Source of the DNA: a virus
Virus record (IMG/VR): IMGVR_UViG_3300030419_005281
Location: 1 to 24,343 of that record
Direction: 5' to 3' (one strand)
Length of the DNA: 24,343 nucleotides
A program made the position numbers and the translations under genes. Below the pieces are notes generated by a model that saw nothing but the letters and a program-made list of their open reading frames with translations, did not search any database and was not told the DNA's origin. Of this stretch, positions 3,016 to 20,441 are shown piece by piece. Each line of letters begins with the position of its first letter. The first letter of the stretch is position 1.

Positions 3016-3023
3016 TATAACCT

Positions 3024-6986: not shown

Positions 6987-7368
6987 TTCGTTTTCTCAAT
7001 GCTTTTAGTTTATCTTTTTTAGTTTTAACTTTACCTACATACTCTTCTGATTTGACTGCACTTGTATCAACCTTTCCTATTGCAATTTCTCTTTTAATAT
7101 CTACTTCAACAGCTCTACTCTTCTGAACTATATCAGGATTAACAGTCAATCCATCAAGTTTATTCATAACACCTGTCATAAACTCATTCATTTGAAGATT
7201 ACCATTGTCAGGTTGATAAGTATGTTTTCTTTCACCGTACACATCAGTATCTTCTTGTACATTTCCACTAACTTCTTTCTTTGGTTTTTTTAAACTTTCA
7301 GGGTCAAAGTTTGGATTCTTTAAATCATACTTAATAATTTTTTTATGTGTTATTCTTTGTACGGCCAT
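6976..7368 (-). CDS. Unknown neck-operon protein with VKTxKDKLKxLR tail (130 aa)
   Basis: A charged, mostly hydrophilic protein with no membrane segment. Residues 1-40 are lysine-rich (MAVQRITHKKIIKYDLK). The C terminus (about residues 87-127) begins VEVDIK and ends VGKVKTKKDKLKALRKR. The same ~40-residue pattern (VEVD-I/V-K ... G-x-VKT-x-KDKLK-x-LR) ends the membrane-anchored protein at 15411-15761. I know of no assigned function; the shared tail suggests a common binding partner. The ATG overlaps the previous stop as TAATG, so translation is probably coupled. It overlaps the gp15-like gene by 11 bases. Confidence 0.75.
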   Translation of the reverse strand: MAVQRITHKKIIKYDLKNPNFDPESLKKPKKEVSGNVQEDTDVYGERKHTYQPDNGNLQMNEFMTGVMNKLDGLTVNPDIVQKSRAVEVDIKREIAIGKVDTSAVKSEEYVGKVKTKKDKLKALRKRNGR

Positions 7369-7685
7369 TATATTCCTAAAGCTTGTTTTAATGTTGAGTG
7401 TATCATCTCACCTTCAATATTCTTTTTTACCACTTTTTGTCCGGGTCTTATCCCTTTTGCAAATTCTATTGTATATTTATTACTTCCTGTTTTAATAATC
7501 TCTACTTTTTTAAATCCATGTTTCCACTTACTTCCACCAAATACTATTCCTTTAGGTGTATGATTAACATAATTAGCTTTAGTTATATTTCCAAATTGAC
7601 TTGTTTTACCACCAGTAATTTGTTTTATTACTTCAAATCCTCTTTTAGTTGTTTTTTCAACTATTAAATCTTTTAATTTTATCAT
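7368..7685 (-). CDS. Small basic protein with 10-residue capsid-targeting-like peptide (105 aa)
   Basis: The start is the ATG at 7685, which overlaps the previous stop as ATGA and follows AAGGA. An upstream in-frame ATG at 7718 is rejected because it lies inside the previous gene and the paralogous start is MIKLKD. The protein begins MIKLKDLIVE, ten residues ending in I-V-E, matching the size and end of T4 capsid-targeting sequences (ten residues ending in an L/I-x-E site). The rest is lysine- and glycine-rich with predicted beta strands (KGIVFGGSKWKHGFKKVEII). It lies beside a second protein starting MIKLKDLLTE. It is probably a packaged internal protein, inferred from the N terminus only. 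Confidence 0.75.
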   Translation of the reverse strand: MIKLKDLIVEKTTKRGFEVIKQITGGKTSQFGNITKANYVNHTPKGIVFGGSKWKHGFKKVEIIKTGSNKYTIEFAKGIRPGQKVVKKNIEGEMIHSTLKQALGI

Positions 7686-8068
7686 CTTGTGTCCTTGTAT
7701 GGACTCCATCTTTTCCATAAACTAAAATCTGTTATTTTACTATCTCTTGGTTCTACAAACTTATCATTAATTGAAAAACTTTTATCTTGTATACCATAAG
7801 CTTTTTTCTTTCTACCATCTATGATGAATAAACCACCTGGTAAAGCTTGTAGTTCCATACCTTTTTTTACATCTAATTTTGTCATTACAGCTTTCTGTAA
7901 TTCTTGTGAACCTCTTCCATGTCCACCATAATGTTGTCCAGTTCCTTTATAATCACCAGTATATGTTTTAGCAGTAAATGATTTAGTAACTGTCCAATAC
8001 TTCTGATTACCGAAATCATTTTTCTTTGTATAATATTTTTCTGTTAATAAGTCTTTTAATTTAATCAT
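7682..8068 (-). CDS. Small protein with 10-residue capsid-targeting-like peptide (128 aa)
   Basis: Begins MIKLKDLLTE, ten residues ending L-T-E, a T4 prohead-protease type site, then KYYTKKNDFG. The body has aromatic/glycine-rich beta-like stretches (GTGQHYGGHGRGSQELQKAV, LQALPGGLFIIDGRKKKAYG) and a basic C terminus (WKRWSPYKDTR). The ATG shares one base with the gp14-like stop (TAATG), and the stop overlaps the next start (ATGA), so the two MIKLKD proteins are translationally coupled to a neck gene. No family recognised. Packaging into the head followed by removal of the first ten residues is the inferred fate. Confidence 0.75.
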   Translation of the reverse strand: MIKLKDLLTEKYYTKKNDFGNQKYWTVTKSFTAKTYTGDYKGTGQHYGGHGRGSQELQKAVMTKLDVKKGMELQALPGGLFIIDGRKKKAYGIQDKSFSINDKFVEPRDSKITDFSLWKRWSPYKDTR

Positions 8069-8541
8069 TATTTAGGTCTCTCTTCAATTTGTAATGTTGA
8101 TAATCTACTTCTATGTGCGGTAGCCTTAATTGAATGTTTATAGTTAGGATGACCACCTATAAGTTGAGGTTCTGTTGTTCCATTTATTTCCCAATAAAAC
8201 TCATTCCAATCAACAATATCACCAACTTCAGGATAAAAATTAAGTGAACCACTTGCAAGATTATTTCTTTGAAAATACATTTCTATTGTCGAATTTACAT
8301 CAGCACCAAATTCATCTTGAAGTACTTCTGGTTCATTAAACATGATTAAACAATTAACTCTAAACCCTACCTCATAATACTTTGTTGTTGATTCACCATA
8401 TACATTTTCTTCTGTATTATCTATACTTACTTTATAAATGTCGACAGATTGTCCAACAATCTCATCAATCAATTCCTCATTCATTGAATCAATTACTTTG
8501 ATTTCTTTTTGTGGTATAAAAAATGGACTTGTTCTTGACAT
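8068..8541 (-). CDS. 14: gp14-like neck protein
   Basis: A 157-residue protein, shorter than T4 gp14 (256). It starts MSRTSPFFIPQ and contains VIDSMNEELIDEIVG, NVYGESTTKYYE and EVGDIVDWNEFYWEI followed by LIGGHPNYKHSIKATAHRSR. The pattern GDIVxWNxxYWEI...QLIGG is what I remember of short gp14-like neck proteins of marine T4-like phages. In T4, gp13 and gp14 form the collar joining head to tail. It follows the gp13-like gene by four bases with an AGGA site. The family call is moderate. It could instead be a generic head-tail connector protein. Confidence 0.55.
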   Translation of the reverse strand: MSRTSPFFIPQKEIKVIDSMNEELIDEIVGQSVDIYKVSIDNTEENVYGESTTKYYEVGFRVNCLIMFNEPEVLQDEFGADVNSTIEMYFQRNNLASGSLNFYPEVGDIVDWNEFYWEINGTTEPQLIGGHPNYKHSIKATAHRSRLSTLQIEERPK

Positions 8542-8545
8542 AATA

Positions 8546-9751
8546 TTATCCTATATAAATTTGTAATGGTGCTTTATTTAATACTGACTGTTGTGATTCT
8601 GCCGTTTCTTGTTCAGCTCGAGCTCTTTCTTGTAAAGAAACAGAATCAAGAAATTCTTTCAATTCATCTAATAATTGTGTTTTTTCCTCTCTACCTTCTG
8701 CCTTTAATCCTTCACCATCCAAATTAACTTCACCATTTGGAAGTGGCATAGATGAGTATTTACTTCTTATAATTCCTAATAATTCTTTTGCCAACGCGAG
8801 GGTATATTTTCTTATCCATTGTCTTCCATTAGAATTTACTTCATTATAAGTAATAAATTTATATGGTATATTTGATGGATCTGATACTTTATTAGTAGTA
8901 TGGGATCTTGTTGTACTTTCTTGATCCTCTCTTAAATAATAATTAAAATATATTTTATCACCTGAATCATTTGAACTTGGTCTTGGAAATATTCTAATTT
9001 TATTATTTACCAATTCAAAAGAATAATTTGATTTTCTAACTCTATCATTTGTTTCAATTGCTTGTGCTCTTGCTATATCGTATGAAACTGGTCTCAATAT
9101 AAATGAAACAGCTGGAGCTACATTACCCATTCCAAATGCATCTAACATTTGTCTTTGTTCAAATGAACCAGCATAAGGGTCATAAAATCTTGTTATAGCC
9201 GCTGGGCCATAATTAAATACTCTTTGTATTTCTAATTTTTTTCCAACATGAGAATCTGTAATACTAGAATCATTTTCTAAGTCATAAACTTGTTGTGAAC
9301 CAGTTAATACTATTGAACCTGTATGTAAAGTTAAATTACCACCAACATTTACTGCTTCACCGTACTGTTCTGATAATACGAATGTACTACCCATATGCGG
9401 TGATTGAGCTTGAAAACTACCTGTTCCCATTGTATTATTTTCATCATTACTCCATCCAGAACCTGATATTTTATTTTCTGAACCATATGATTCCCACATC
9501 CAATTTTTAACATTATAATTATTTATATGAGTAGAATATTCAGAAACAGCTTCTTCAAACATTGAATAAATTGAACCTGAATTAAATTCAAGTTGCATAA
9601 CAGGATGCCCAAGTCTTCTAGCTACAAATTTACATACTTGTAAACTTTCACTTACAAAAGATACATCTGCATCATATATTCCATACGGTGTGTTACCAAC
9701 AATTTGTGATGGTGTTGTTGGGTCACTATAAATAAAATCACTCTTAGGCAT
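8546..9751 (-). CDS. 13: gp13-like neck protein
   Basis: A 401-residue protein (T4 gp13 has 309). The N-terminal part contains RRLGHPVMQLEFNSGSIYSM followed by FEEAVSEYSTHIN, the conserved helix pattern of gp13-like head-completion proteins. Residues ~85-180 are a Gly/Ser/Thr-rich insertion, probably a surface domain. The second half (EIQRVFNYGPAAITRFYDPY, SYDIARAQAIETNDRVRK, NKIRIFPRP) is followed by a helical C terminus (KYTLALAKELLGIIRSKYSS). The role would be closing the portal after packaging and accepting the tail. It opens a transcription unit with a promoter-like motif 28 bases upstream and a GGAG site. Confidence 0.65.
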   Translation of the reverse strand: MPKSDFIYSDPTTPSQIVGNTPYGIYDADVSFVSESLQVCKFVARRLGHPVMQLEFNSGSIYSMFEEAVSEYSTHINNYNVKNWMWESYGSENKISGSGWSNDENNTMGTGSFQAQSPHMGSTFVLSEQYGEAVNVGGNLTLHTGSIVLTGSQQVYDLENDSSITDSHVGKKLEIQRVFNYGPAAITRFYDPYAGSFEQRQMLDAFGMGNVAPAVSFILRPVSYDIARAQAIETNDRVRKSNYSFELVNNKIRIFPRPSSNDSGDKIYFNYYLREDQESTTRSHTTNKVSDPSNIPYKFITYNEVNSNGRQWIRKYTLALAKELLGIIRSKYSSMPLPNGEVNLDGEGLKAEGREEKTQLLDELKEFLDSVSLQERARAEQETAESQQSVLNKAPLQIYIG

Positions 9752-9779
9752 TTACATTCTCCAAATAGCTATTATTCTT

Positions 9780-9793
9780 CATATATAAATATC
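9780..9793 (-). promoter_or_regulatory. Promoter-like motif, copy 6
   Basis: Exact CATATATAAATATC on the plus strand, 28 bases before the gp13-like ATG and 11 bases after a terminator stem. Confidence 0.65.
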
Positions 9794-9802
9794 ACTGAAA
9801 AC

Positions 9803-9832
9803 AAAAAAGGGTGAGATATTTCCCACCCTTTT
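9803..9832 (-). terminator. Rho-independent terminator after the 166-residue virion gene
   Basis: On the minus strand AAAAGGGTG (9832-9824) pairs with CACCCTTTT (9813-9805) around a 10-base loop. It is followed by T residues to 9803. It lies 23 bases after the stop codon. Confidence 0.85.
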
Positions 9833-9855
9833 AAGTTGTTTATTGTTTTTAAGGT

Positions 9856-10356
9856 TTAAGATTCAAATGTCCAACTACCCATACATTCTACAATGTACCA
9901 GCCTGCTGAACCATCACCTACGATAGTAACTCTATCACCTACACCAGCACCACTATCAAGTTGTAAGTCTTTATCATCTACACCAGCACCATTTGTACCA
10001 CCTTCAACAACAGTATCTATAGCATTTGAATCAATACAAGAACCCATTATCTTATCAGATGCATTTGGTGAAATATTGAATGTTTGTCCAGCTGAACCTG
10101 CCCATACAAAAGTATAATTATACCCTTTTACTGTAGCTGGTAAAGTTACAGTTGCACCATTTGTACTTTCAAGGAATGTAGTACCAGATTCTGCTCCAGT
10201 TATTGTATCACCATTAGAATGAGCATCACCTACTTTTATTTTTTCTAGATTTGTCTCACCTATAACAGTTAAGGCACCATCAACAACTCCACCATCTCTT
10301 AGTGAAATTTCAGATTCCTTTTTACTTATTTTATATTTACCTATTCTTTTTGCCAT
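9856..10356 (-). CDS. Probable virion surface or head-decoration protein (166 aa)
   Basis: A 166-residue protein with a short basic start (MAKRIGKYKISKKES), then a glycine/threonine-rich beta protein: DGGVVDGALTVIGETNLEKI resembles the shaft repeats of trimeric phage fibres. It continues ATVTLPATVKGYNYTFVW, GQTFNISPNASDKIMG and VGDRVTIVGDGSAGWYIVE, and ends MGSWTFES. This combination suggests a fibre-like stem plus a small beta head. It sits directly after the major capsid gene with its own promoter-like motif and terminator, the layout expected of an abundant virion protein. No exact family recognised; a head fibre or decoration protein is an inference. Confidence 0.7.
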   Translation of the reverse strand: MAKRIGKYKISKKESEISLRDGGVVDGALTVIGETNLEKIKVGDAHSNGDTITGAESGTTFLESTNGATVTLPATVKGYNYTFVWAGSAGQTFNISPNASDKIMGSCIDSNAIDTVVEGGTNGAGVDDKDLQLDSGAGVGDRVTIVGDGSAGWYIVECMGSWTFES

Positions 10357-10375
10357 TATTTTTCTCCCAATGTTG

Positions 10376-10440
10376 AGTCACTACTCTCAGGATTATTAAT
10401 TTTTTTTATACTAACTATGTTTAGTGACTACTCTAGCTAG
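10376..10440 (-). repeat. Inverted and direct repeats in the leader of the 166-residue gene
   Basis: AGTCACTA (10376-10383) and TAGTGACT (10422-10429) are perfect inverted copies, separated by an AT-rich loop. ACTACTCT also occurs twice as a direct repeat (10380-10387 and 10427-10434). CTAGCTAG (10433-10440) is a palindrome. All lie between the promoter-like motif at 10458 and the ATG at 10356, so they would be part of the message leader. They could form a long-range stem or a protein-binding site. Confidence 0.5.
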
Positions 10441-10457
10441 ATTATATAACTTATTTA

Positions 10458-10471
10458 CACATATAAATATC
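10458..10471 (-). promoter_or_regulatory. Promoter-like motif, copy 7
   Basis: Plus strand CACATATAAATATC, one base off the main form. It is ten bases after the major capsid terminator and 101 bases before the ATG at 10356, leaving a long leader. Confidence 0.6.
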
Positions 10472-10481
10472 ATTTTAAAAG

Positions 10482-10510
10482 AAAAACCCCCTAAATAAAA
10501 GGGGGTTTTT
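10482..10510 (-). terminator. Strong rho-independent terminator after major capsid gene
   Basis: A perfect 10-bp stem: AAAAACCCCC (minus, 10510-10501) with GGGGGTTTTT (10491-10482) around a 9-base AT loop. It is 29 bases after the capsid stop codon. Confidence 0.92.
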
Positions 10511-10539
10511 CAATGATACTATATTAAAGATTAATTAAC

Positions 10540-12255
10540 TTATACTAAGTTTAAATCTTTAACTTGGATCTTACCATAGAACTCTGGTCTAATCATTTTC
10601 TTAGCGTATCTTGTCATCACACCTTTTCTTGGAGTGAAGTCACTTGGATCGTACACTAATGGAGTCATGATTAGTGGAACATATGGTGAATATACAGCAC
10701 CGGTTTCAAGGAAGTTATTACCTCTGAATCCAACCAAGATAGTATTTTCTGTCATATAAGGATTCTTATAAACAGTAAATCTATTTTGGATTGTACCTAC
10801 AGACTGAACACCCATAGCGAACTGAGATTTGTTACCATCTGTATTAGACATATATCCAGGTATTGATTCAAGTATAGTAGCTACTTTTGGAGATACAACA
10901 CAGAAATTAGCACCACCACGAAGAGTCAATCTATGAATCTCGTTTGATACTTTTTGTATTTTACCTACAAGAGTTTGATACCATTCGAATCTTGTACCAT
11001 AGAATGTAGTAATATTCCAATTATCTTCACCTGTACCTACACCATCATAGTCCTCACCAGGAGTTACTGACCAATAATCTGTAGTTACTGCATCTGAAAT
11101 TAACATATCAAGAATTTCTAAATCAATTTCCATTGAAATATATTCTGATAACATTGAAGTTAATTCAGCTTCAGCGTCAACTGAATGATAAGCGTTAAGG
11201 TCTTGAGCTAACTCAGGAGTCCATACAGCTTTCAATTTACGAGTTTTAGCTACAATTGGTAGACTTCTAAGTTGTAAATCAACTTCAGGTATTGCTAAAT
11301 CATCAGTAGTAGCATCACCACCAGTTTCTTCAAAGTCACCTCTGTTAGCTTCATCAGGTTGTTGACTATATATAACTTTAAGGTCTTGAGAACCAGCTCC
11401 ATCAAGAGCTTCACCACAAGTTGAAGATGATACAACAAATTTAAGTGTTGTTCCATCATCAGATATAGTTGTATATTGTGGGAATACTTGTTGGAATACT
11501 GTAGCTGAACTTGAAATATTCCAAGATCTTACAGATTTATTATCAGGTCTTGTAAATACATCTCCTCCTGTTTTAATCGTTAACACATGAAGATTACCCA
11601 ATGAAGAAGAATGTTCTTGATTGAAGTTTATATCTTTATATGTAGCTGATGCAGAAGTATATGTTCCATTTGCTGAATTAATTGAACAAGTAATCGCACT
11701 TGTAGTTTGTGAATTTATTGAATAGTCATATCGACCTTGTCCATAAAGACCACCAACACCATAAGGTGCAGAAGATCCAGATGGATTGTTAGGACCAGAC
11801 TTACCGTGTAATGAATTTACATCACCACCAGGTACATTAACAGCGTCATTAACACCAAACCCACTAGCGTTACTTGATGCAGTTGTTTTACCATATTTAA
11901 AGTCAAGATAAAATACAAGACCAGATGGTAAATTCATTGGTTGAACTGAAACAAAGTCTTGAGCTGCTATTTCACCAAAAATTCTACGAACTAAAGGTAA
12001 AGCAACACCAGACCATTCTTCAGAGTTTGCTCCAGCGGCACCACCAGCGGCATATCCACTTGTAGCTGAAGCTTCTGTAATAAGTTGTTTTGCTTGGTTT
12101 TCAAGCATAACAGCCATTCCAGATTTTTGAAAATCCTCATTCAAACCATCAAGAAGACCAGTTTTATCCCATTTATTAACGAGAGCTTTTGCTTCATCTT
12201 GTTGTTTTTTATAAGGAGACGCATTTAATAAAGCGTCATTTACATAATCACCCAT
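10540..12255 (-). CDS. 23: Major capsid protein (gp23)
   Basis: A 571-residue protein (T4 gp23 has 521). The N-terminal ~61 residues form a helical pro-region (NEDFQKSGMAVMLENQAKQL) ending ITE-A at 61/62. This matches the T4 arrangement in which prohead protease cuts after an L/I-x-E at about residue 65. The mature part begins ASATSGYAAGGAAGANSEEW, then VALPLVRRIFGEIAAQDFVS and QPMNLPSGLVFYLDFKYG, diagnostic of gp23. The C terminus (YKNPYMTENTILVGFRG, TGAVYSPYVPLIMTPLVYDP) and PRKGVMTRYAKKMIRPEFYG are also typical. It assembles into the icosahedral shell on the gp22 core. The ATG follows AGGAG; the gene shares a transcript with the scaffold 16 bases upstream. No separate vertex paralogue (gp24) is present in the window. 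Confidence 0.97.
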   Translation of the reverse strand: MGDYVNDALLNASPYKKQQDEAKALVNKWDKTGLLDGLNEDFQKSGMAVMLENQAKQLITEASATSGYAAGGAAGANSEEWSGVALPLVRRIFGEIAAQDFVSVQPMNLPSGLVFYLDFKYGKTTASSNASGFGVNDAVNVPGGDVNSLHGKSGPNNPSGSSAPYGVGGLYGQGRYDYSINSQTTSAITCSINSANGTYTSASATYKDINFNQEHSSSLGNLHVLTIKTGGDVFTRPDNKSVRSWNISSSATVFQQVFPQYTTISDDGTTLKFVVSSSTCGEALDGAGSQDLKVIYSQQPDEANRGDFEETGGDATTDDLAIPEVDLQLRSLPIVAKTRKLKAVWTPELAQDLNAYHSVDAEAELTSMLSEYISMEIDLEILDMLISDAVTTDYWSVTPGEDYDGVGTGEDNWNITTFYGTRFEWYQTLVGKIQKVSNEIHRLTLRGGANFCVVSPKVATILESIPGYMSNTDGNKSQFAMGVQSVGTIQNRFTVYKNPYMTENTILVGFRGNNFLETGAVYSPYVPLIMTPLVYDPSDFTPRKGVMTRYAKKMIRPEFYGKIQVKDLNLV

Positions 12256-12271
12256 GATTATTTTCTCCTAA

Positions 12272-13324
12272 TTACTTAATTAAACCAGCTAATTTTCTAA
12301 ATCTATCAGCAACTTGAGTTTCTTCAGAAATCACTTTCTTTGATTCTTTAGAAGGTTTAGTTGAACTAACAGCTGAACTAGCTGATTCTTTAATTGGTTT
12401 TCTTCTTGCAATAGATCCGTTATCTCCGAATTGTTCTGCAAGAGTTGTGTATACTAGTTTAATCTCACGAGTAGTTTGAGCTCTGTCAAAAGTTTCGACC
12501 ACTTTTAGTTTTTGATTATTGTTCAAACTATACTCTTTAAATAACTTGTTAGTAAATAACAATTTAGCATTCAGAATATTTACTTCGTGAAGTTTACCTT
12601 TTAAGAAAGATACAGCTTCTTTATACTCTTTTAATTCAGCTTTGATAGACTCCATAGCTTTCGCTTTTTCTTGTCCACCTTTACCGATACCAGAGGATGT
12701 GTCAGTGTTTCCACGACCTGTACCGTTACCAATACCAGAAGATTTATCTACTTCATCAAGTTCTTCTTCGTCTTCTTCAAGAGCTACTTCATCAATCTCA
12801 TACTCTTCTTCAACAGGTTCATCACTTGATTCTTCAACAGGTTCATCAGATTCATCAACTTCAACAGATTCTTCTTCAACTTCAGGTTCTTCTTCGGCAG
12901 GTATTTCTTCTTCACCAGCTTCATCTTCACCTTCTTCTTCAGAAATTTCTTGTTCAAGTTCTTTAATCACAGAATCTAAGTCAAGACTATTTAAACCTTC
13001 TTCTTCAACTTCAGGTTCTTCTTCATCTTCAACTTCAGCTTCTTCTTCACCTTCTTCATCTTCTTGTTCAGCAACATAAGCTTCTTCAGCAGGTATTTCT
13101 TCTTCACCACCTTCTTCGTCATCTACTGCTACTTCTTCATCATCTTCAAATTCATCTTCCATAACTGGATCAGATTCTTCGATTTCATCTTCTTTAAGTT
13201 TAGCAGATAACATATTTTTAAGTTGTGGTGTGAATGCTTCTTCTAAGGCCATTTTAGCATTTTGTAAAGCTGTTTCTCTAACTGCTTTAGCATCTGCTAT
13301 GGCTTCTTTTAAAATATCACCCAT
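12272..13324 (-). CDS. 22: Prohead core scaffolding protein (gp22-like)
   Basis: I start at the ATG at 13324 (MGDILKEAIADAKAVRE), nine bases after GGAG; the ATG at 13339 lies upstream of that site. The protein has 350 residues, longer than T4 gp22 (269). A helical N terminus (ALQNAKMALEEAFTPQLKNM) leads into a ~150-residue stretch that is largely Glu/Asp (residues ~45-195, with EEEIPAEE twice and repeated PVEE), then a helical scaffold core (LHEVNILNAKLLFTNKLFKE, NQKLKVVETFDRAQTTREIK). The core pattern is typical of gp22. The scaffold guides shell assembly and is degraded by prohead protease. The acidic expansion may mimic DNA charge or bind the many basic cargo-like proteins, which is inference. 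It precedes gp23 as in T4. Confidence 0.9.
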   Translation of the reverse strand: MGDILKEAIADAKAVRETALQNAKMALEEAFTPQLKNMLSAKLKEDEIEESDPVMEDEFEDDEEVAVDDEEGGEEEIPAEEAYVAEQEDEEGEEEAEVEDEEEPEVEEEGLNSLDLDSVIKELEQEISEEEGEDEAGEEEIPAEEEPEVEEESVEVDESDEPVEESSDEPVEEEYEIDEVALEEDEEELDEVDKSSGIGNGTGRGNTDTSSGIGKGGQEKAKAMESIKAELKEYKEAVSFLKGKLHEVNILNAKLLFTNKLFKEYSLNNNQKLKVVETFDRAQTTREIKLVYTTLAEQFGDNGSIARRKPIKESASSAVSSTKPSKESKKVISEETQVADRFRKLAGLIK

Positions 13325-13339
13325 GATACTTTTCTCCAT

Positions 13340-13442
13340 ATATTATATTATTTTGGAATAAGTTTATTAGGAAACTTAATAAGGTTAAGCGGATTTTTAG
13401 ACACCATATAGTTCGCAATAAGATGGTGTATTTGTAATTGTT
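13340..13442 (-). promoter_or_regulatory. Structured leader of the scaffold-capsid message
   Basis: About 118 bases separate the promoter-like motif at 13443 from the scaffold ATG. ACACCAT (13401-13407) and ATGGTGT (13423-13429) form a 7-bp stem with a 15-base loop, and TTATTA/TAATAA form a weaker stem closer to the gene. A 5' stem may protect this abundant message. No riboswitch class is recognised. Confidence 0.4.
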
Positions 13443-13456
13443 CGTATATAAATATT
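13443..13456 (-). promoter_or_regulatory. Promoter-like motif, copy 8
   Basis: Plus strand CGTATATAAATATT, two bases off the main form. It lies upstream of the scaffold and major capsid genes and just after the bS21 gene. Confidence 0.6.
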
Positions 13457-13469
13457 AAAAAATATAAAA

Positions 13470-13491
13470 AATTAATAGTTTTTATTAATTA
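13470..13491 (-). terminator. Weak AT-only hairpin at end of bS21 gene
   Basis: AATTAATA and TATTAATT form an 8-bp A/T stem overlapping the bS21 stop codon. It is followed on the minus strand by T-rich sequence. With no G-C pairs it would terminate poorly at best, so read-through into the scaffold gene is likely. Confidence 0.3.
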
Positions 13492-13742
13492 TTTTCTTTT
13501 TCTTTTTCTACTGACCATTTATTTCTTAAAATGGCTAAATTCTTTTTTTCTCTTTTAAGTTTTGATGGTTTTTCATAAAATGTTCTTTTTTTCAATTCAA
13601 ACATTAAATTACTTTTCTTGATTTTCTTTTTAAGAACTTTTAAAGCTCCTTCGACATTATTGTTATAAACCTTTACTGATAACCCACCCATTTGTTTTTC
13701 TTTGGGTTTTCTTTTTTTATGAAACTTCTTTTTGTATCTCAA
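13485..13742 (-). CDS. rpsU: Phage-encoded ribosomal protein bS21
   Basis: An 85-residue protein whose residues 19-75 match small-subunit protein bS21: GGLSVKVYNNNVEGALKVLK, then KKIKKSNLMFELKKRTFYEK followed by PSKLKREKK. The bS21 hallmarks are the V-x-V-x-N-N start, the paired helices and the ELxxRxFYEKPSxxRxxK motif. An extra basic N-terminal arm (FHKKRKPKEKQ) precedes the domain. The start is TTG at 13742, supported by GAGG five bases upstream; an internal ATG before GGLSV lacks such a site. bS21 helps the 30S subunit engage mRNA, and viral copies are known from marine phages. A phage copy could exchange onto host ribosomes and favour viral messages. It sits at the end of the long head operon, next to scaffold and capsid. 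Confidence 0.9.
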   Translation of the reverse strand: MRYKKKFHKKRKPKEKQMGGLSVKVYNNNVEGALKVLKKKIKKSNLMFELKKRTFYEKPSKLKREKKNLAILRNKWSVEKEKENN

Positions 13743-13743
13743 T

Positions 13744-14394
13744 TTAACCTCTTATTTGTTGTTTAATTATTCCTCTTATAACTTTTCGTAACCTTTGTTC
13801 ATTCATTTGTTTTGATTCCAAATGTTTTATGAATTCTTTTGCTAAAAATCTTTCTCTTCCATATTGAGCTTTTGTCCATTTCTTTCTCATTGATATAGGC
13901 ATTGATTCATAGTCTTCTGATAAATTATGATTAACAAACCAAGCTACTCTACGACAATCTGACTGATAAGTTTTTTTATATCTATTTTCTTCAAGTGTTT
14001 TCATCCATTTTTTAACTTCTTTAACAGTACATCTTTTACCTTTTGATTCTTTAACATTTGGATGAGCTGGACCACCCACATCACCACCTTTTGGTCTTTT
14101 TCTTTTTTTCTTTTTCTTTGCAGCTTTCTCAGCAGCATCTAATTTCGCATTAGCGTCACTAACAGCTTTATCCATTCTTTTTTCAATATCTCTTTTAGAA
14201 CCAGGTTTTGTTGGTCTTCCACTACCTGGACCACCTTCTTCTACTTCATCTTTTTCTTCTTCGTCAAAAGGATTATCCATTATATCAGTTTTAGCTTGTT
14301 TTGGCCCTTCAGGTTTTTTATCATCACCCTCAGACATAATCTCATCAATAGATTGTTTAATTATTTCTTTAATCTGACTTTTTGTTAGTTTCAC
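13744..14394 (-). CDS. Basic protein with capsid-targeting-like N terminus (216 aa)
   Basis: Starts at a GTG (14394) preceded by GAGGAAGAGG and overlaps the actin-like gene by 26 bases. It opens MKLTKSQIKEIIKQSIDEIM, then SE-GDD, the same pattern as the starts at 17884, 18121 and 18375. Residues ~45-115 are low-complexity (acidic, then a GGPGSGRPTKPGSKRD linker, then a KKKKKRKRPKGG cluster). Residues ~120-195 look folded (CTVKEVKKWMKTLEENRYKK, CRRVAWFVNHNLSEDYESM). The last 20 residues (MNEQRLRKVIRGIIKQQIRG) resemble the N-terminal peptide again. Function unknown; a DNA-binding internal head protein is a reasonable guess from its charge and the leader-like start. Confidence 0.75.
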   Translation of the reverse strand: MKLTKSQIKEIIKQSIDEIMSEGDDKKPEGPKQAKTDIMDNPFDEEEKDEVEEGGPGSGRPTKPGSKRDIEKRMDKAVSDANAKLDAAEKAAKKKKKRKRPKGGDVGGPAHPNVKESKGKRCTVKEVKKWMKTLEENRYKKTYQSDCRRVAWFVNHNLSEDYESMPISMRKKWTKAQYGRERFLAKEFIKHLESKQMNEQRLRKVIRGIIKQQIRG

Positions 14395-15409
14395 CCTCTT
14401 CCTCCTCTATAAGTTGTGCTTCACTCAAACAACCCCTTGATACGGCTGTATGAGCATCTTCTACTAAAATAAATTCCTTAACATTGATAGGAAATTCATC
14501 TTGACTAAATTGTTCATTTACTACATCCATAAAACCTTTAACCAATGATGTTCCTCCACCAAATACAACTGGAATTGAATTAGGGAAGTTTGGTACACTT
14601 TCAGCATTATTAAACTGATGTGTTAAGTTTGTCAATAAGTAGTTGACTAATGCACCATAATAACTTCTGATAGCATTTATGATATTGTACTCATCACTTC
14701 CCTCACTATAAATATCACTTATTGCACTTTTTGTTAAATCTAAGTTATTTGAACTCTCTTTTATACTTATCACTTTTGCTTTAGTAACACCACAATCTGC
14801 CGCTACATTTTCATCAATCCAATCTCCACCTCTAGCAACAGAGAAGGAGAGTGCACTCATTCCTTGATACATCACACATATATTACACATTCCAGCACCC
14901 ATAGAGATAGCAATACCAGTCAAATCATTATCTACCAATCCTTCATAGGCGAGAGCTACACTCTCCTCTATAACTTTGACATTGTATCCATAATTTTCAA
15001 TGATCTGTTTTAATACATCTTCGTGATAAGAAACTTCTCTTACTTGATCTATTGGTTTTGCTGGTACACAATAAACACAAGTTTCTTTTCCTTTTGCTTT
15101 ACCTAACAATTCACCAATGATTGCATTTAAAACAGGTAAAGCATCTTTTTCTTTTGGATTTAATAATCCACTTGCCATTGGTCTTTTTAATTCTGTTGTA
15201 CTAAATATTTGTGCATAATTAAAAGCGTGTTGTCCAACAATGTGTACATTACCTGCTTTTTCCACAAATGGTATTCTCTGTCTTTTCAACATTCTTTTAA
15301 CTTGATTTGCATCTCCATCGACTGTTAGAAATACATTTCTTTGTTTTTTTATACTTTTATCTGTTGCTGCTATGTAGTAACTTGTACCACAATCTAAACC
15401 TTTAGCCAT
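14369..15409 (-). CDS. Actin/Hsp70-fold ATPase-like protein
   Basis: A 346-residue protein with the ordered motifs of the actin-MreB-ParM-Hsp70 superfamily. Phosphate-1 is GLDCGTS (4-10), connect-1 VIEESVALAYEGL (146-158), phosphate-2 AISMGAGMCNICV (167-179), a GGDWIDENVA segment (194-203) as in MreB/Hsp70, and the adenosine motif PVVFGGGTSLVKGF (280-293). The usual Asp of phosphate-2 (D-x-G-G-G-T) appears to be Ser169, so hydrolysis may be weak or altered. Length fits MreB or ParM rather than full Hsp70; there is no substrate-binding domain. It could form filaments that position DNA or capsids, or act as an assembly chaperone. The ATG follows AAGAGGTTAAT one base after the preceding stop. 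I am confident of the fold, not of the job. Confidence 0.82.
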   Translation of the reverse strand: MAKGLDCGTSYYIAATDKSIKKQRNVFLTVDGDANQVKRMLKRQRIPFVEKAGNVHIVGQHAFNYAQIFSTTELKRPMASGLLNPKEKDALPVLNAIIGELLGKAKGKETCVYCVPAKPIDQVREVSYHEDVLKQIIENYGYNVKVIEESVALAYEGLVDNDLTGIAISMGAGMCNICVMYQGMSALSFSVARGGDWIDENVAADCGVTKAKVISIKESSNNLDLTKSAISDIYSEGSDEYNIINAIRSYYGALVNYLLTNLTHQFNNAESVPNFPNSIPVVFGGGTSLVKGFMDVVNEQFSQDEFPINVKEFILVEDAHTAVSRGCLSEAQLIEEEEGETNKKSD

Positions 15410-15410
15410 A

Positions 15411-15761
15411 TTAACCTCTTAGTTTTTTTAATTTATCTTTTTGGGTTTTAACTTCACCCTTAATTTTTTCATCTAATTTAACACTAACTTCATCTGATTT
15501 TGTGTCAATTATAGTATTTTTCTTTACATCTACTTCAACAGGTCCAGTTGGTCCTACTTTTTTACCTTCTAACCTATCTTTAAGAACCTCAATCGGGTAA
15601 TCAAATCCTTTAGTTTCAGAAACATTAATTACAGGAGATGTTTTTTCAAACTTAATGTTTCTTTTAGCCCATAGTAGAATAACATATACACCTAATACTA
15701 TCTGCCATATAACTAAACTATACATTAAAAAATGTATTATATGATGAGTTAAATCACCCAT
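15411..15761 (-). CDS. Single-pass membrane protein with VKTxKDKLKxLR tail (116 aa)
   Basis: Residues ~8-33 form one strongly hydrophobic segment (IIHFLMYSLVIWQIVLGVYV) followed by LLWAKRN, suggesting an N-out, C-in anchor by the positive-inside rule. The remaining ~80 residues are hydrophilic. The end (residues ~75-115: VEVDVKK ... GEVKTQKDKLKKLRG) is the same tail seen on the soluble protein at 6976-7368. The ribosome-binding site and start (AGAGGTTAATATGG) are identical to those of the actin-like gene directly after it, one base downstream. It could anchor the actin-like protein or another tail-binding partner to the membrane. It is also a conceivable holin or spanin candidate, with no specific support. 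Confidence 0.75.
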   Translation of the reverse strand: MGDLTHHIIHFLMYSLVIWQIVLGVYVILLWAKRNIKFEKTSPVINVSETKGFDYPIEVLKDRLEGKKVGPTGPVEVDVKKNTIIDTKSDEVSVKLDEKIKGEVKTQKDKLKKLRG

Positions 15762-15769
15762 ATTAACCT

Positions 15770-16441
15770 CTATTTTTTAAATTTATTAACAAATTGTCCA
15801 AGAGAAACTCCACCACTTACAACATTAGGAACATCTTTTAAACTTCTTTTAACTTCTTTCATATCTTCACCATCTCTTGCAGCTAAATCTTCTTCGTCAC
15901 CACCACCTTCAGGTGCCTTATCACTATCTAAAGCTTCTTTTTTAACTGCTTTTGATATAGCTTGTCTTTTTTTATGAAGATACTCATCACTATCATCGGT
16001 ATCACCATCATTATCTATATCTTTATCTTCTCTATCGTCATAATCATTATCCAATTCATCTTCGTCTGGTTTATCCATAGCTTCATCTATTTCATAATAA
16101 CGATTAAGTACATGTCCGATATCTTCGTAAAGACCTGTTAATCTTTGATTAAGTGAATTAGCTTCTTTTGCAGTTTTTTCAAACTCCATAACATTACCTT
16201 TAAGAGCTTTCATATTTTTACTCACTGATACTTTATCAAACCAATCATCAGTTTCACTAAGTATATGATTATGAGCTGATTCAGCGATATGAGAAAGTTG
16301 TTTTGCTACTTCCATAATATTGGTATGATTATAAAGTTGTTTACCAACAATACCGAAATTTCTTACTCCCTCAACGACTTGTTTTTTATCTATCTGTTTA
16401 TCTTCAAAAACTTCAGATAGTAATTCCTTCATTTTTTTCAT
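15770..16441 (-). CDS. Helical protein with EF-hand-like calcium loop and capsid-targeting-like start (223 aa)
   Basis: Begins MKKMKELLSE, ten residues ending L-S-E, like the short capsid-targeting peptides elsewhere in this window. Residues 15-120 are helical (VAKQLSHIAESAHNHILSE, ANSLNQRLTGLYEDIGHVLN). Residues 141-152 (DIDNDGDTDDSD) fit an EF-hand or dockerin-type loop, with Asp at positions 1, 3, 5 and 12 and Gly at 6; a basic helix (YLHKKRQAISKAVKK) follows. The C terminus is acidic then hydrophobic (VPNVVSGGVSLGQFVNKFKK). I recall similar DxDxDGDxDxxD proteins in marine T4-like phages, without a function. The start ATG has AGGAG seven bases upstream. It is probably a head-associated protein. 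Confidence 0.75.
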   Translation of the reverse strand: MKKMKELLSEVFEDKQIDKKQVVEGVRNFGIVGKQLYNHTNIMEVAKQLSHIAESAHNHILSETDDWFDKVSVSKNMKALKGNVMEFEKTAKEANSLNQRLTGLYEDIGHVLNRYYEIDEAMDKPDEDELDNDYDDREDKDIDNDGDTDDSDEYLHKKRQAISKAVKKEALDSDKAPEGGGDEEDLAARDGEDMKEVKRSLKDVPNVVSGGVSLGQFVNKFKK

Positions 16442-16454
16442 TATCCATCTCCTG

Positions 16455-17147
16455 TCATTTAATTATATTTGGCATATTTTTTTGTAAAATTTTTGAATTC
16501 CTACCAGATACCGTACCAGGTCTAGCAGGTCTTACCTCATCAATACCAGGGTCATCTCCATAATTACTTCCTGGTGTATATCCTCCACCCATAAGTTGAT
16601 TACCACCTTGATGATTTGTTACCTTTCCATAAACATTAAAATTATTCCAAGTTTGTGTTTGATAGGTATTCTCTGGTGTATATCCTCCACCAGCAAGTTG
16701 ACTTCCCTGATGATTTGTTACTTTTCCATAAACATTAAATTGATTCCAAGTATTAGGTTGATTTGGTGTTGGAATTGGTGTTTTATTTTTACCTTCAGTA
16801 TTTGGTGAACTATAAGTACTGAAATTACTTCCACCCCGTACACTATTCATATTTCCAAAACCTGTCATTCCGTGTTGTCCTTGTTGAAAATTTGAAGCTT
16901 CATCAATACCAACATCGTCACCATAATTGTTTCCAGGAGTATATCCTCCACCTCCTCCTAAAGTACTGAATTGACTTCCACCTCCACCTACACCACCCAT
17001 TTTTTCAAAACCTGTCATTCCCCACTGACCTTGTTGAAATTCTACAACTTCATCAATTCCTGGATCATCACCATAGTTATTACCTGGTATATAACCACCA
17101 GCGGTTGGTCCAAATATACTTGGTCTATTTTCAATTCTTATACCCAC
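16455..17147 (-). CDS. Glycine-rich repeat protein (230 aa)
   Basis: Starts at GTG (17147) after AGGGG. Most of the protein is built from three interleaved repeats: GGYxPGNNYGDDxGIDE at residues 17-33, 67-83 and 187-204, with a shortened GGGYTPENTY at 153-162; FQQGQxGMTGF at 37-47 and 87-97; and TWNxFNVYGKVTNHQG at 133-148 and 166-181. It is rich in Gly, Asn, Gln and Tyr, lacks a hydrophobic core and ends basic (NSKILQKNMPNIIK). The DNA shows matching repeats. The GDDxGIDE segments could bind divalent metal or a partner. No family recognised; a flexible virion or scaffold-like protein is possible. Confidence 0.75.
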   Translation of the reverse strand: MGIRIENRPSIFGPTAGGYIPGNNYGDDPGIDEVVEFQQGQWGMTGFEKMGGVGGGGSQFSTLGGGGGYTPGNNYGDDVGIDEASNFQQGQHGMTGFGNMNSVRGGSNFSTYSSPNTEGKNKTPIPTPNQPNTWNQFNVYGKVTNHQGSQLAGGGYTPENTYQTQTWNNFNVYGKVTNHQGGNQLMGGGYTPGSNYGDDPGIDEVRPARPGTVSGRNSKILQKNMPNIIK

Positions 17148-17156
17148 AATTATCCC

Positions 17157-17450
17157 CTAAAAAAAAATTAATTTGATTATAATTCCTATCAATGTTGAAT
17201 AAGATATCCACATAGCGTGATTTATATTTTGTTTCCATCTTATTAAGGCTTTAAATTCATCAGTATCAATTTGATGTCTCCAATAGGTATTTTTATTTAC
17301 TCTAACTACTATCCCATCTTCTGGGTCTAACAAAATTTCTTTTATTTCTTTAATATTTTCATGCATTTCCAAAAGTTCACCATTTGGTAATCTTTTTTCA
17401 ATACAATCCAATCTATCTGCTAAATGTTTATTTGTGATACTATTTGCCAC
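17157..17450 (-). CDS. Small protein with helical stalk and C-terminal membrane anchor (97 aa)
   Basis: Starts at GTG (17450), sharing one base with the previous stop (TAGTG), after AAGGA. Residues 1-45 are helical and charged (NKHLADRLDCIEKRLPNG, MHENIKEIKEIL), followed by LDPEDGIVVRVNKNTYWRH. A C-terminal segment (~residues 77-97, HAMWISYSTLIGIIIKLIFF) is hydrophobic enough to span the membrane. The arrangement (N-terminal coiled coil, DPEDG turn, tail anchor) resembles small phage membrane proteins such as XhlA-type lysis accessory proteins, but that is a resemblance in layout only. It could help lysis or membrane attachment of assembly factors. Confidence 0.7.
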   Translation of the reverse strand: MANSITNKHLADRLDCIEKRLPNGELLEMHENIKEIKEILLDPEDGIVVRVNKNTYWRHQIDTDEFKALIRWKQNINHAMWISYSTLIGIIIKLIFF

Positions 17451-17884
17451 TATTTAGTCCTTCCAGGTTTTCCTTTTTTACCACCAAAATATTTTCTAAA
17501 TCTATCCATAATTTTATCTCTATTTAAAACAGACATTAAAAACTTTGTTTCAAATGGTTTAGCTCTTGCAATATTACCAGTTTGCATTCCCCTTACTAAA
17601 TCAAAATAATCAATTGTACCATTTTTAGCTTTTGACATCCAATCCTTTATTACTCTATATTGAGTTTTTCTTAAATCTTTTGCCCACATTCTTAAACCAT
17701 CATCAACTACTTTTTTTGCTTCTTTTGAAGAAAATCCTTGATAAAAATCTTTATTACCACTCTTTTCTCTTTTTTTATATTCTGAACTACTTGTACCAGG
17801 ATATGAAGGGGTAGAAAATGAACCAAGTTCATTAACAAGTTCCTCTTTAATAATTTCTTTTAATCTATCCTTACTTATTTTCAT
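17450..17884 (-). CDS. Basic protein with capsid-targeting-like N terminus (144 aa)
   Basis: Opens MKISKDRLKEIIKEELVNEL, with L-V-N-E as a possible protease site at residues 16-19. A Ser/Pro-rich linker (GSFSTPSYPGTSSSEYKK) follows, then a helical basic domain (GFSSKEAKKVVDDGLRMWAK, YRVIKDWMSKAKNGTIDYFD, FLMSVLNRDKIMDRFRKYF) and a GGKKGKPGRTK tail. No family recognised. It starts seven bases after the previous stop with no clear Shine-Dalgarno site, so translation probably depends on coupling to the gene before it. The leader plus linker plus basic domain fits a packaged internal head protein. Confidence 0.72.
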   Translation of the reverse strand: MKISKDRLKEIIKEELVNELGSFSTPSYPGTSSSEYKKREKSGNKDFYQGFSSKEAKKVVDDGLRMWAKDLRKTQYRVIKDWMSKAKNGTIDYFDLVRGMQTGNIARAKPFETKFLMSVLNRDKIMDRFRKYFGGKKGKPGRTK

Positions 17885-17890
17885 ATCATT

Positions 17891-18121
17891 TTAAGATGCT
17901 AAACGATGCATCTTAACTCCTCTTAACAGATTATATAATTCTTTTTTATCTAAAATAGCTTTACCTTTTCCTGTCATAATTACAATTTTATCACCTGTCC
18001 ACTGCATATCAGCTCTTGAAGATAATTTAAATCTCCCACCTTCATTAAGTTTTTCTTCTTTTACAAGTTTTTGAATTTCTTCTCTAATAATTTCTTTTAA
18101 TCTTTCCTTAGATATATTCAT
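17891..18121 (-). CDS. Small protein with capsid-targeting-like N terminus (76 aa)
   Basis: Opens MNISKERLKEIIREEIQKLV, then KEEKLNE-GG at residues 21-29, where K-L-N-E followed by Gly is a good L-x-E site. After removal, about 49 residues would remain: GGRFKLSSRADMQWTGDKIV, then a small beta-like region and LLRGVKMHRLAS. The start overlaps the previous stop as TAATG. No family is recognised. This is the clearest case in the window of a leader that makes up a third of the whole gene product. Confidence 0.7.
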   Translation of the reverse strand: MNISKERLKEIIREEIQKLVKEEKLNEGGRFKLSSRADMQWTGDKIVIMTGKGKAILDKKELYNLLRGVKMHRLAS

Positions 18122-18375
18122 TATTTTTCCCTTTTCATTTTTGTCTTAATTTTTTGAATATACATAATTAATTCTTGTGGAGATATTCCTAAAGCTTTGA
18201 TTACTTTGAATAAAACAGACATTTTTTTAATTTTATTTAAATCAGCTTCTTTTACGGCACCTACAAATTTTTTCATAAATCTTTTTACTTGTGCTGGAAC
18301 AACCACTTTTTCGAGATTTTGTTCTTCAATTGTTTGTCTAATAAGTTCTTTTAATTGTGATTTTGTAATTTTCAT
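18121..18375 (-). CDS. Small basic helical protein with capsid-targeting-like N terminus (84 aa)
   Basis: I use the ATG at 18375, with AGGAG upstream, rather than the TTG one codon earlier. It opens MKITKSQLKELIRQTIEEQN, then LE-KVV. The remainder is basic and helical (PAQVKRFMKKFVGAVKEADL, KMSVLFKVIKALGISPQELI) and ends in KTKMKREK. No family recognised. It is coupled to the next gene by TAATG overlap. Size, charge and leader all fit the phage's group of small candidate internal proteins. Confidence 0.7.
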   Translation of the reverse strand: MKITKSQLKELIRQTIEEQNLEKVVVPAQVKRFMKKFVGAVKEADLNKIKKMSVLFKVIKALGISPQELIMYIQKIKTKMKREK

Positions 18376-18384
18376 CAATATCTC

Positions 18385-20106
18385 CTATAATCTCACATTC
18401 ATTCCTGTATATTTTTTAAACATTGTACCAAGTTGGTCTGCATATACACCTTTTAATTTTTTAACTACTTTTCTACTTGTTCCTCTCATTCTAATAAATT
18501 CCACATCATATAAATCAGAAGATTTCAAAGTTATTATGACATGTGATATTGATTTTGAGTTTCTACCTATCTTAAATTGTAAACTATTTTTACTTGAACC
18601 AAAATTTTTAGCACCAGTCATAGCGATAAATCTATTACCACCTAATTGTTGTAGAATGGTTTTCGCTACTTGTGATTCTGTAAGTTTTCCTTCTTTTACA
18701 GATTCATTATACCCAAGAAGATTTGGAGTATTCTTCATAAGAAAAGTTTCAAAAGTTTTTAATTGTTTAAAATAGCTTTTTTCTTTTCCAAATGATGTCT
18801 TTGGAAATATTCTAATCATATCCTTTAAAGATTTTGCTACCTTTGTTACTTCACCCACAAAATATTCATCTTTAGGTGGTCTTCGTTTTTCTGTAAGTTT
18901 TCCTTCTTTTTTCAATCTACTCTTTTCAGCTCTTCCTCTATTCTTTGATTCTGCTTCAAATCCCACAATTTTTCCACCTTTATGAGATGCATCTTTACCA
19001 TCACCATTACCATAAGTTCCTTTTTGACGATTGTATTTGTTTAATTCTGCTCTATACTTTTTTGATTTAGTAGATGATTGAAATTTCTTGTATTCTGCTT
19101 TGTAATCTCTTTTTTTAGTTTCAGCCACAATTTTTTTAACTTTACTTAATGGTAATTCTTGCCAAGTTGATTCTGGATGGACATTTCTTCTACCAGCATC
19201 TTCCCAATGGTCTGTAACTTGAACAGATTTGTTATCACCACCTTGTAAATTATATCTTTTTCCTTTTTTATCATATACAACTACATCTTTACCTTGATTA
19301 ACAGCCTTCATCCATTTTCTTACATTTATTCTTTCTGTAAGTTTTCCTTCAACAAATTTAATTCTATGTTTTTTCAAATATTTTTTTAATATTTTTTCAT
19401 CACCAGGTTTAGTGTGTAATTTAATTCTATAAGGATCTATTGGATCAAATGTAGGAAGTTTTTTACCAGGATATTTTTTCATTATTATTTTAAGTTTTTT
19501 TTCATCAGCACTATTAATTGTTATTCCTTCTGTAACTGTAGCATCACCTATATTTACTTTTATATCATCAGTTCCTGTTAAAGTATATCCAAGAACTTCT
19601 GATTGTTTTCTTCGTTGTTTATCAAATGCTTTTCTATCTTCTTTCTTAAGAGCTCCTGCAAAACCTTCACTAACTCTTATCCTATTTGATATAAGAACAT
19701 CTAATGTTTTATTTAAAACTTTTTTACTTATATCCAACACAAAAGTATTTCTATCACCAACACCTATATCATAATCTTTTCCAGGTTTCAATCGTAATTT
19801 TTTTAAAATTTTATCAACTTTTAATTTATCCATAGTTGGTATTTTTAGTTGTCGTCTTAATTTACCTTCATCCATCATAATTTCACGAACCATTTTTTTA
19901 ATTAATTCTCTAACTCTTGTTTCTTTTTTAATTTTTTCTGGTTTTCCTTTATGTTTTGTAGAGGCAAAATCATGTGTATCTTTTTTACTCATACTTTTTG
20001 CCGCATCCTTAACATCTTTCGATACCTTAGATGGTGATAATTCACCCTTTTTCAAAGCATGAACCATTCCCATAAATCTTTGTTGTGATTTTGACTTGGA
20101 AGGCAT
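18385..20106 (-). CDS. Large modular protein: DUF3008-like start plus domains joined by EGKLTE linkers (573 aa)
   Basis: The start is the ATG at 20106 (MPSKSKSQQRFMGMVHALKK), overlapping the previous stop as TAATG after AAGGA; an upstream ATG at 20139 lies inside the previous gene. Residues 1-55 match the DUF3008 pattern (MPxKSKxQQRFMGMVHxxxKGE ... SMSKKDxHDFASTKHKG). A leader-like helix follows (RVRELIKKMVREIMMDEGK, 65-82), then two small alpha/beta domains (~85-147, ~193-253), a domain at ~262-325, a basic linker, a domain at ~412-465 and a C-terminal domain (478-573, ILQQLGGNRFIAMTGAKNFG) that I recall as a stand-alone phage protein of unknown function. EGKLTE occurs at 253-258, 401-406 and 472-477, with VSEG and VTEG at other joints. 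These L-x-E sites suggest that gp21 cuts this as a polyprotein. Strongly basic; probably packaged. Confidence 0.82.
   Translation of the reverse strand: MPSKSKSQQRFMGMVHALKKGELSPSKVSKDVKDAAKSMSKKDTHDFASTKHKGKPEKIKKETRVRELIKKMVREIMMDEGKLRRQLKIPTMDKLKVDKILKKLRLKPGKDYDIGVGDRNTFVLDISKKVLNKTLDVLISNRIRVSEGFAGALKKEDRKAFDKQRRKQSEVLGYTLTGTDDIKVNIGDATVTEGITINSADEKKLKIIMKKYPGKKLPTFDPIDPYRIKLHTKPGDEKILKKYLKKHRIKFVEGKLTERINVRKWMKAVNQGKDVVVYDKKGKRYNLQGGDNKSVQVTDHWEDAGRRNVHPESTWQELPLSKVKKIVAETKKRDYKAEYKKFQSSTKSKKYRAELNKYNRQKGTYGNGDGKDASHKGGKIVGFEAESKNRGRAEKSRLKKEGKLTEKRRPPKDEYFVGEVTKVAKSLKDMIRIFPKTSFGKEKSYFKQLKTFETFLMKNTPNLLGYNESVKEGKLTESQVAKTILQQLGGNRFIAMTGAKNFGSSKNSLQFKIGRNSKSISHVIITLKSSDLYDVEFIRMRGTSRKVVKKLKGVYADQLGTMFKKYTGMNVRL
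18676..19350 (-). repeat. Three identical 18-bp direct repeats encoding EGKLTE
   Basis: Plus-strand TTCTGTAAGTTTTCCTTC occurs exactly at 18676-18693, 18889-18906 and 19333-19350, all in the same frame. Each encodes the linker between modules of the 573-residue protein. A diverged relative lies near 19850-19875 (EGKLRR). Identity at silent positions suggests recent duplication or recombination. Confidence 0.85.
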
Positions 20107-20441
20107 TAGAGTAGTTTCCTTATCGATTGACGAAGCCATGCGTGGAAACCTAATACATTTTTTGAATATTTTCTATGTATATTCATCGCTTCTTTATTTA
20201 AACCTTTTTTCTTTAAAGCCAATTGAAAATCATTAACTGAATCCCAATAAGCTTTATATGTTTTTTCGAAATTTTTACGGAGTTTGTGATATTCTTGTGA
20301 AGCACCAACTTCTTTAATATTAAATTCTTCTTTTATATTTTTAAGAACCTCATTAACTTTAGATTTAGATTCTTTTTTGGTAACTTTTTTGGTAACTTTT
20401 TTTTTCTTACCATATCCCATTAATTTTTTATAATCACTCAT
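20106..20441 (-). CDS. Basic helical protein between gp21 and the modular protein (111 aa)
   Basis: Starts MSDYKKLMGYGKKKKVTKKV followed by TKKESKSKV, a very basic N-terminal arm with two tandem VTKK units. An L-x-x-I-K-E-E helix (VLKNIKEEFNIKEVG) leads to a helical domain (YHKLRKNFEKTYKAYWDSV, NDFQLALKKKGLNKEAMNI) and ends LRQSIRKLL. The ATG follows AGGGG, four bases after the protease stop. It is coupled to the next gene by TAATG. No family recognised. Position near gp21 corresponds loosely to the small prohead core genes 67 and 68 of T4, a positional comparison only. Confidence 0.75.
   Translation of the reverse strand: MSDYKKLMGYGKKKKVTKKVTKKESKSKVNEVLKNIKEEFNIKEVGASQEYHKLRKNFEKTYKAYWDSVNDFQLALKKKGLNKEAMNIHRKYSKNVLGFHAWLRQSIRKLL

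Follow-up and report, generated by a model that had tools for sequence, protein, structure and literature searches.

The injected internal proteins of bacteriophage T4, counter-defence proteins in role, were recognised by the leader that they carry. It is established that T4 possesses diverse injected anti-restriction proteins sharing only a leader (PMC12373910, PMC9026906): the phage has three internal proteins plus Alt, and IP1-3 are all injected anti-restriction proteins (PMC12373910). The cleavage motif of the T4 prohead protease gp21 is likewise established as L/I-X-E, and in IPIII residues 4 and 7 govern targeting, while residues 8 and 10 govern processing (PMC9026906). IPII and IPIII start with MKTYQEFIAE, and IPI starts with MKTFKEFTSTTTPVSTITE. 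Here we report the analysis of a 24,343-nucleotide stretch of DNA, hereafter the window, which is the entire IMG/VR record IMGVR_UViG_3300030419_005281 of an uncultured virus. Within a T4-type head operon it encodes at least seven proteins with N-terminal leaders of two recurring types, which we interpret as capsid-targeting propeptides, as well as a predicted cargo polyprotein.

The leaders of the window, all of them on the minus strand, are as follows (aa, amino acids; pI, isoelectric point; the body is the part of a protein behind its leader):

7656-7685, minus strand: short leader MIKLKDLIVE of gene 7368-7685 (105 aa; predicted mature body of 95 aa, pI 10.3)
8039-8068, minus strand: short leader MIKLKDLLTE of gene 7682-8068 (128 aa; body of 118 aa, pI 9.8, without internal L/I-x-E)
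16412-16441, minus strand: short leader MKKMKELLSE of gene 15770-16441 (223 aa; acidic body)
14329-14394, minus strand: long leader VKLTKSQIKEIIKQSIDEIMSE of gene 13744-14394 (GTG start; likely cut after MSE22 or IDE18)
17828-17884, minus strand: long leader MKISKDRLKEIIKEELVNE of gene 17450-17884
18041-18121, minus strand: long leader MNISKERLKEIIREEIQKLVKEEKLNE of gene 17891-18121
18322-18375, minus strand: long leader MKITKSQLKELIRQTIEE of gene 18121-18375 (a homologous body carries a short leader in relative locus L032)
1252-1314, minus strand: plausible IPI-like leader MSVKLKELITTKPKPKKVIAE of gene 1060-1314

Short leaders are ten residues long, and all three close with a strict L/I-x-E. 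The long form follows the pattern M(K/N)(I/L)(S/T)Kxx(L/I)KE(I/L)I... over 18-27 residues and ends in LNE (18121), IEE (18375), VNE (17884) or MSE (14394). An earlier note, made from the letters of this DNA, had described two recurring leader types; its seven main starts are present, and its three ten-residue sequences read as it gave them. It had the long form ending at or near an xE site, and all four long leaders do end in Glu, of which only LNE and IEE are strict L/I-x-E. Position 7368, from which it let the leader range begin, is the end of a gene and not a leader start. As for the start at 1314, which it had called related, the leader lacks E10 and resembles T4 IPI in its layout of targeting part, spacer and IAE; we count it as plausible only, because a search for relatives of gene 1060-1314 found none. 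The claim of at least eight such proteins thus comes down to seven firm cases and one plausible case, and the list behind it lacked the polyprotein at 18385-20139.

Per window, shuffled N-termini of the 34 window genes gave 0.00015 leaders of the short type and none of the long type, a chance expectation of about 0.0002, and the short and long leader cores do not occur inside any window protein. Since the regular expressions for the leaders were written after the leaders had been seen, the independent test is provided by the relatives of the window. In the predicted model of the 17450-17884 protein the leader helix spans residues 5-19, disorder sets in at the cut site, and the body that follows is helical; the model has no fold match in PDB. 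An AlphaFold model of the 7682-8068 protein was set aside as too uncertain for use (mean predicted local distance difference test score, 57).

The cleavage site was analysed in sets chosen without it, short leaders being selected on residues 1-6 and long leaders on residues 1-13. Across 57 distinct short-leader bodies, residues 7, 8 and 10 (L/I, L/I and E) hold about 2 bits each, residue 10 is Glu in 40 of the 57, and conservation drops to 0.2-0.5 bits from residue 11 onward. Among 163 distinct long-leader bodies, 77% have L/I-x-E in the leader tail, versus 13% for body stretches of the same length; the tails show no enrichment of L/I-x-D (ratio 0.73), and LNE is the commonest ending. In alignments of 140 short-leader and 134 long-leader proteins the leader alone is conserved, and synonymous codons differ within the leaders, which argues that selection acts on the leader peptide.

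The bodies are diverse: the 303 among the matches listed fall into 214 homology clusters, including 186 singletons. Both leader types occur in six body clusters, and in the clearest swap pairs the homology starts at the cut site (marked by a slash). MIKLKDLLKE/AKQTQFQIP in locus L094 corresponds to MKLSKERLKEIIREEIRNLHE/AKQTQFSIP in L070, with 77% identity over 74 residues, and MIKLKDLLVE/KNLSDEMKELK in L115 to MKITKTQLRRIIKEEIQLLTE/RSLSGEMEELK in L287; LITE/ATRW is shared between L204 and L287. Since homologous bodies swap them at the site, evolution has handled short and long leaders as equivalent and independent units. In the window, the predicted mature bodies of seven of the eight leader proteins are basic (pI 9.8-10.4; 5.5-22 kDa), and small basic products would be expected for T4-like internal proteins. 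The cargo domains recognised in relatives are zeta-toxin/AAA_33, NUDIX, HD, RNase_T-type exonuclease, M23, lysozymes and pentapeptide repeats, and PADLOC returned few and scattered matches for the short-leader proteins. An ADP-ribosyltransferase-like reading of several relatives' bodies (YHFT/YHGT) was dropped, Pfam giving only a sub-threshold Tpt1/KptA match for one body.

The acidic 15770-16441 protein has 64 relatives among the fetched loci. Its body contains DIDNDGDTDDSDEYLHKKRQAI, which is EF-hand-like and on visual comparison resembles such a stretch in the GC1454 protein of cyanophage S-SM1, whose gene adjoins the GC190 gene of that phage.

Relative loci were fetched by the protease gene alone (80 loci), and 62 of them were counted on both sides of the protease. 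The downstream side, 195 kb in all, holds 88 leaders and the upstream side, 318 kb, none; of the 17 loci that extend at least 3 kb beyond the protease on the downstream side, 15 contain at least one leader. A first scan of the protease-fetched loci, which left out two annotated-neighbour controls, placed all 111 matches on the coding strand, nearly all of them at gene starts. Among 50 large contigs caught by the leader pattern alone, many of which are fragments, 33 encode a gp21-type protease, versus 4 of 19 control contigs. In the whole collection, a scrambled pattern of equal specificity matched 27 stretches, and each leader pattern matched at least 120. Within 10-24 kb, 7-13 leaders are present in the window and in such relatives as L070, L072, L287 and L301. 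A tblastn search of annotated phages with the bare long leader gave no match, the low-complexity filter being the probable cause.

Upstream of the three tandem long-leader genes lies a further candidate for head cargo:

18385-20139, minus strand: predicted cargo polyprotein of 584 aa, with its start perhaps at 20106

This open reading frame (ORF) has seven well-placed L/I/V/M-x-E sites, at residues 91, 158, 204, 269, 340, 417 and 488, contains EGKLTE three times, and is divided by the sites into up to eight modules of 5-11 kDa, all but one with a pI near 10. Residues 76-91 form an internal leader-like helix, RVRELIKKMVREIMMDE; the module at residues 95-156, which follows it in the window, stands alone elsewhere with a short or a long leader. 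Segments of the ORF recur in varied combinations across 91 fetched loci, and 94 of the 201 homology boundaries fall within 3 residues of the seven sites, where 17.7 are expected; none of 5000 random site sets reached 94. From these boundaries we infer that the ORF encodes a cargo polyprotein that would be cut at the same motif as the leaders. Fused ORFs in two relatives, L035 (near 4208-5400) and L067 (near 6271), keep a complete short leader internally (MAKLKDILSE and MIKLKDLLTE), and are likely to be further polyproteins.

Nearly all recognisable genes of the window are on the minus strand. A T4-type head and neck operon runs from portal to tail, with the following head genes:

22719-24269, minus strand: portal protein of gp20 type, with which the head operon begins (phrog_213, E=2e-66)
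20446-21075, minus strand: prohead protease of gp21 type (phrog_207, E=1e-52)
12272-13339, minus strand: probable gp22-like scaffold, assigned by position and by its 14 L/I-x-E sites
10540-12255, minus strand: major capsid protein of gp23 type, with the propeptide end QLITE61/ASAT (phrog_138, E=8e-73)

The protease, correctly placed by the earlier note in the same operon as the leader genes, matches the solved structure of T4 gp21 (5jbl) with E=1e-13. Its His77, within ALGELDHP, is aligned with T4 His85, and SSRGLGS, at about residue 130, with the catalytic serine motif of T4 gp21. In 26 distinct relatives the capsid propeptide ends at the same place in L-[ILV]-x-E, so L/I-x-E is the motif at which cleavage by their protease is to be expected. 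The scaffold candidate had no family match in the profile search of window proteins, and a megablast search of phages with the window gave no match.

Several other genes, all on the minus strand, were noted alongside. A homologue of ribosomal protein bS21 is encoded inside the head operon at 13485-13691 (Pfam Ribosomal_S21, E=5e-14), and in Microcystis phage Mel-JY01, too, an RpsU is annotated between the protease and capsid genes. An actin-like protein with a full-length Pfam Volactin match (14369-15409; E=1e-72) lies among the leader genes of the operon, and 16455-17147 encodes a repeat-built protein without family match (repeats around GGGYTPGNNYGDDPGIDE). Between portal and protease, 21466-21780 encodes a small protein with a GYNTPFAF motif; because its counterpart in another T4-like contig (G019, near 62828) begins with MDKLKEIIRELIKRELDE, a leader related to those above may also be present on a gp67-like core protein. 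An endolysin-like protein with Glyco_hydro_108 and PG_binding_3 domains is encoded at 2536-3018, among the tail genes.

Taken together, we consider it highly probable (about 0.86) that the leaders serve as capsid-targeting propeptides, like those of the T4 internal proteins, and that the proteins bearing them are packaged and cut, and may then be injected. This is the reading put forward in the earlier note, and each of its computable predictions held: the boundary at the site, unrelated bodies that share only the leader, exchange of leaders between homologous bodies, restriction of the genes to the head operon, a protease that has the catalytic His and Ser motif, the cut motif of the capsid protein, and a leader layout that matches IPII/IPIII. 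Packaging and cleavage are strongly indicated by these sequence patterns. By analogy with T4, the leader would act as an amphipathic helix of 10 or about 18-27 residues that docks the new protein into the prohead scaffold core; the gp21-type protease would then cut after the Glu of L/I-x-E, freeing the mature protein inside the head, where it would remain with the DNA. At infection the small, mostly basic proteins would enter the host with the DNA, and at least some of them would probably act early, for example against restriction, like T4 IP1-3. That the bodies encoded in the window are effectors is a guess.

Several observations weigh against this interpretation or limit its reach. The endings VNE and MSE deviate from strict L/I-x-E in two of the four long leaders of the window, and the bodies of 15770 (five sites) and 13744 hold further internal L/I-x-E. 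Overall the depletion of internal sites is slight, with an observed/expected ratio of 1.04 versus 1.25 in control ORFs, and we do not take it as proof. Profile and Pfam searches recognised a functional domain in none of the seven leader-bearing bodies of the window, and in the polyprotein Pfam matched the first module only, to the uncharacterised DUF3008. Finally, four whole T4-like contigs of 145-185 kb from other branches hold 1-3 leaders each, which is close to the T4 level; set against the 7-13 in the window and its relatives, this makes the leader expansion lineage-specific.

The proteins could also be packaged and trimmed as proposed and yet act within the head as basic DNA-condensing or space-filling proteins rather than as injected effectors. 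The small size and high pI of most mature products would fit such a role, as would the absence of recognised enzymatic domains from the window bodies, but the extreme diversity of bodies among those listed, the relatives' domains of the zeta-toxin/AAA_33, NUDIX and HD kinds, which are needless for neutralising DNA, and the anti-restriction function of all three injected T4 proteins make it doubtful. It is improbable that the leader proteins belong to the prohead core or scaffold, as T4 gp67/gp68 do, and are shredded by the protease and missing from the mature virion. Their genes do lie in the head operon beside scaffold and protease, and the acidic 15770 protein, with its internal sites, is widespread; however, five of the seven window bodies lack any internal L/I-x-E, versus 14 sites in the window scaffold and 16 in T4 gp22, and so do not have the several internal cut sites of gp67/gp68-type core proteins. 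This difference favours surviving cargo over degraded core proteins, and scaffold parts need not be so diverse or enzymatic.

Two further explanations would leave packaging aside. An N-terminal signal unrelated to the capsid, acting for example in host-factor binding, protein turnover or translation, would agree with the ordinary nucleotide enzymes among the relatives' cargo domains, and position at the 5' end is by itself compatible with a regulatory role. We judge it very unlikely in view of the strict confinement to the head operon, the boundary at the gp21 motif, the sharing of one site by long and short forms that differ in sequence, the synonymous codon variation and the position-by-position match with T4 IPII/IPIII. 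It is hardly credible that the similarity reflects recently duplicated gene starts, a mobile 5' cassette without function, as the tandem of three long-leader genes at 17450-18375 might suggest: the leader DNA has diverged at synonymous positions, and among homologues of the 7682-8068 protein residues 1-5 and E10 are invariant down to 34% identity of the whole protein, so that the conservation pattern already contradicts this explanation.

Beyond the propeptide reading itself, a broader proposal seems to us evenly balanced between right and wrong, namely that this lineage loads each head with about 15 small proteins by means of two interchangeable tags and a polyprotein cut in the head, and that it gains effectors by joining a leader or module to a new body. 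The leaders are short tags that might serve for loading proteins into phage heads. If the proteins are packaged and cut as proposed, every particle may bring a whole set of finished proteins into its host cell. Applied to uncultured phages, the leader rule picks out hundreds of candidates for packaged proteins. Most of the 214 families into which the listed bodies fall have no known function, and the rule makes anonymous small genes a testable class. Leader swapping together with modules between cut sites suggests a route by which head cargo is acquired. What is new is how large the array is, together with the interchangeable long leader and the polyprotein punctuated by cut sites; we found no report of these, or of arrays of capsid-targeting leaders in marine or metagenomic T4-like phages, in the open-licence papers searched.

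Among known systems, the N-terminal capsid-targeting sequence of P1 DarB and the propeptides of ejection proteins in the giant phages phiKZ and SPN3US also target proteins into heads, and in phiKZ/SPN3US a distant relative of gp21 cuts after Glu (PMC9024508, PMC5694885). Their leaders differ in sequence and length from those of the window, and none is repeated on many proteins, except for the identical 15 residues of SPN3US gp53/gp54. For the T-even phages, PMC12373910, citing Repoila 1994, gives at least ten accessory internal proteins, which as cited there are recognised, like the window proteins, by a shared N-terminal signal before unrelated bodies; that account concerns T-even coliphages only, and what it relates of them includes neither a long leader nor a polyprotein. 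The T4-GC190 cytidyltransferases of two cyanophages start with MKKFSAFLNE (S-SM1), which aligns position by position with the short leaders of the window, and MKKFSTFISE (S-ShM2). GC190 of S-SM1 was found by mass spectrometry in purified virions (PMC3037559), so a protein with such a leader is present in the particle of a marine T4-like phage; it differs in being the product of a single leader gene away from the head operon, with an enzymatic body that is absent from the window.

T4 itself is likewise a close system, and because it carries three internal proteins plus Alt, the principle is not new. IPI, IPII, IPIII and Alt share with the window proteins the L/I-x-E motif and unrelated small basic bodies (PMC9026906, PMC12373910), the window protease has the catalytic His and Ser motif of its homologue gp21, and the plausible leader at 1314 would correspond to the longer propeptide of IPI. 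The short leaders align position by position with IPII/IPIII, positions 4, 7 and 8 being hydrophobic and position 10 Glu, although the window has Leu/Met for Tyr/Phe at position 4 and Leu for Phe at position 7. Unlike T4, the window has a second, long helical leader type of 18-27 residues, somewhat longer than that of T4, and whereas the T4 genes are scattered, at least seven leader genes and the predicted cargo polyprotein are clustered here in the head operon.

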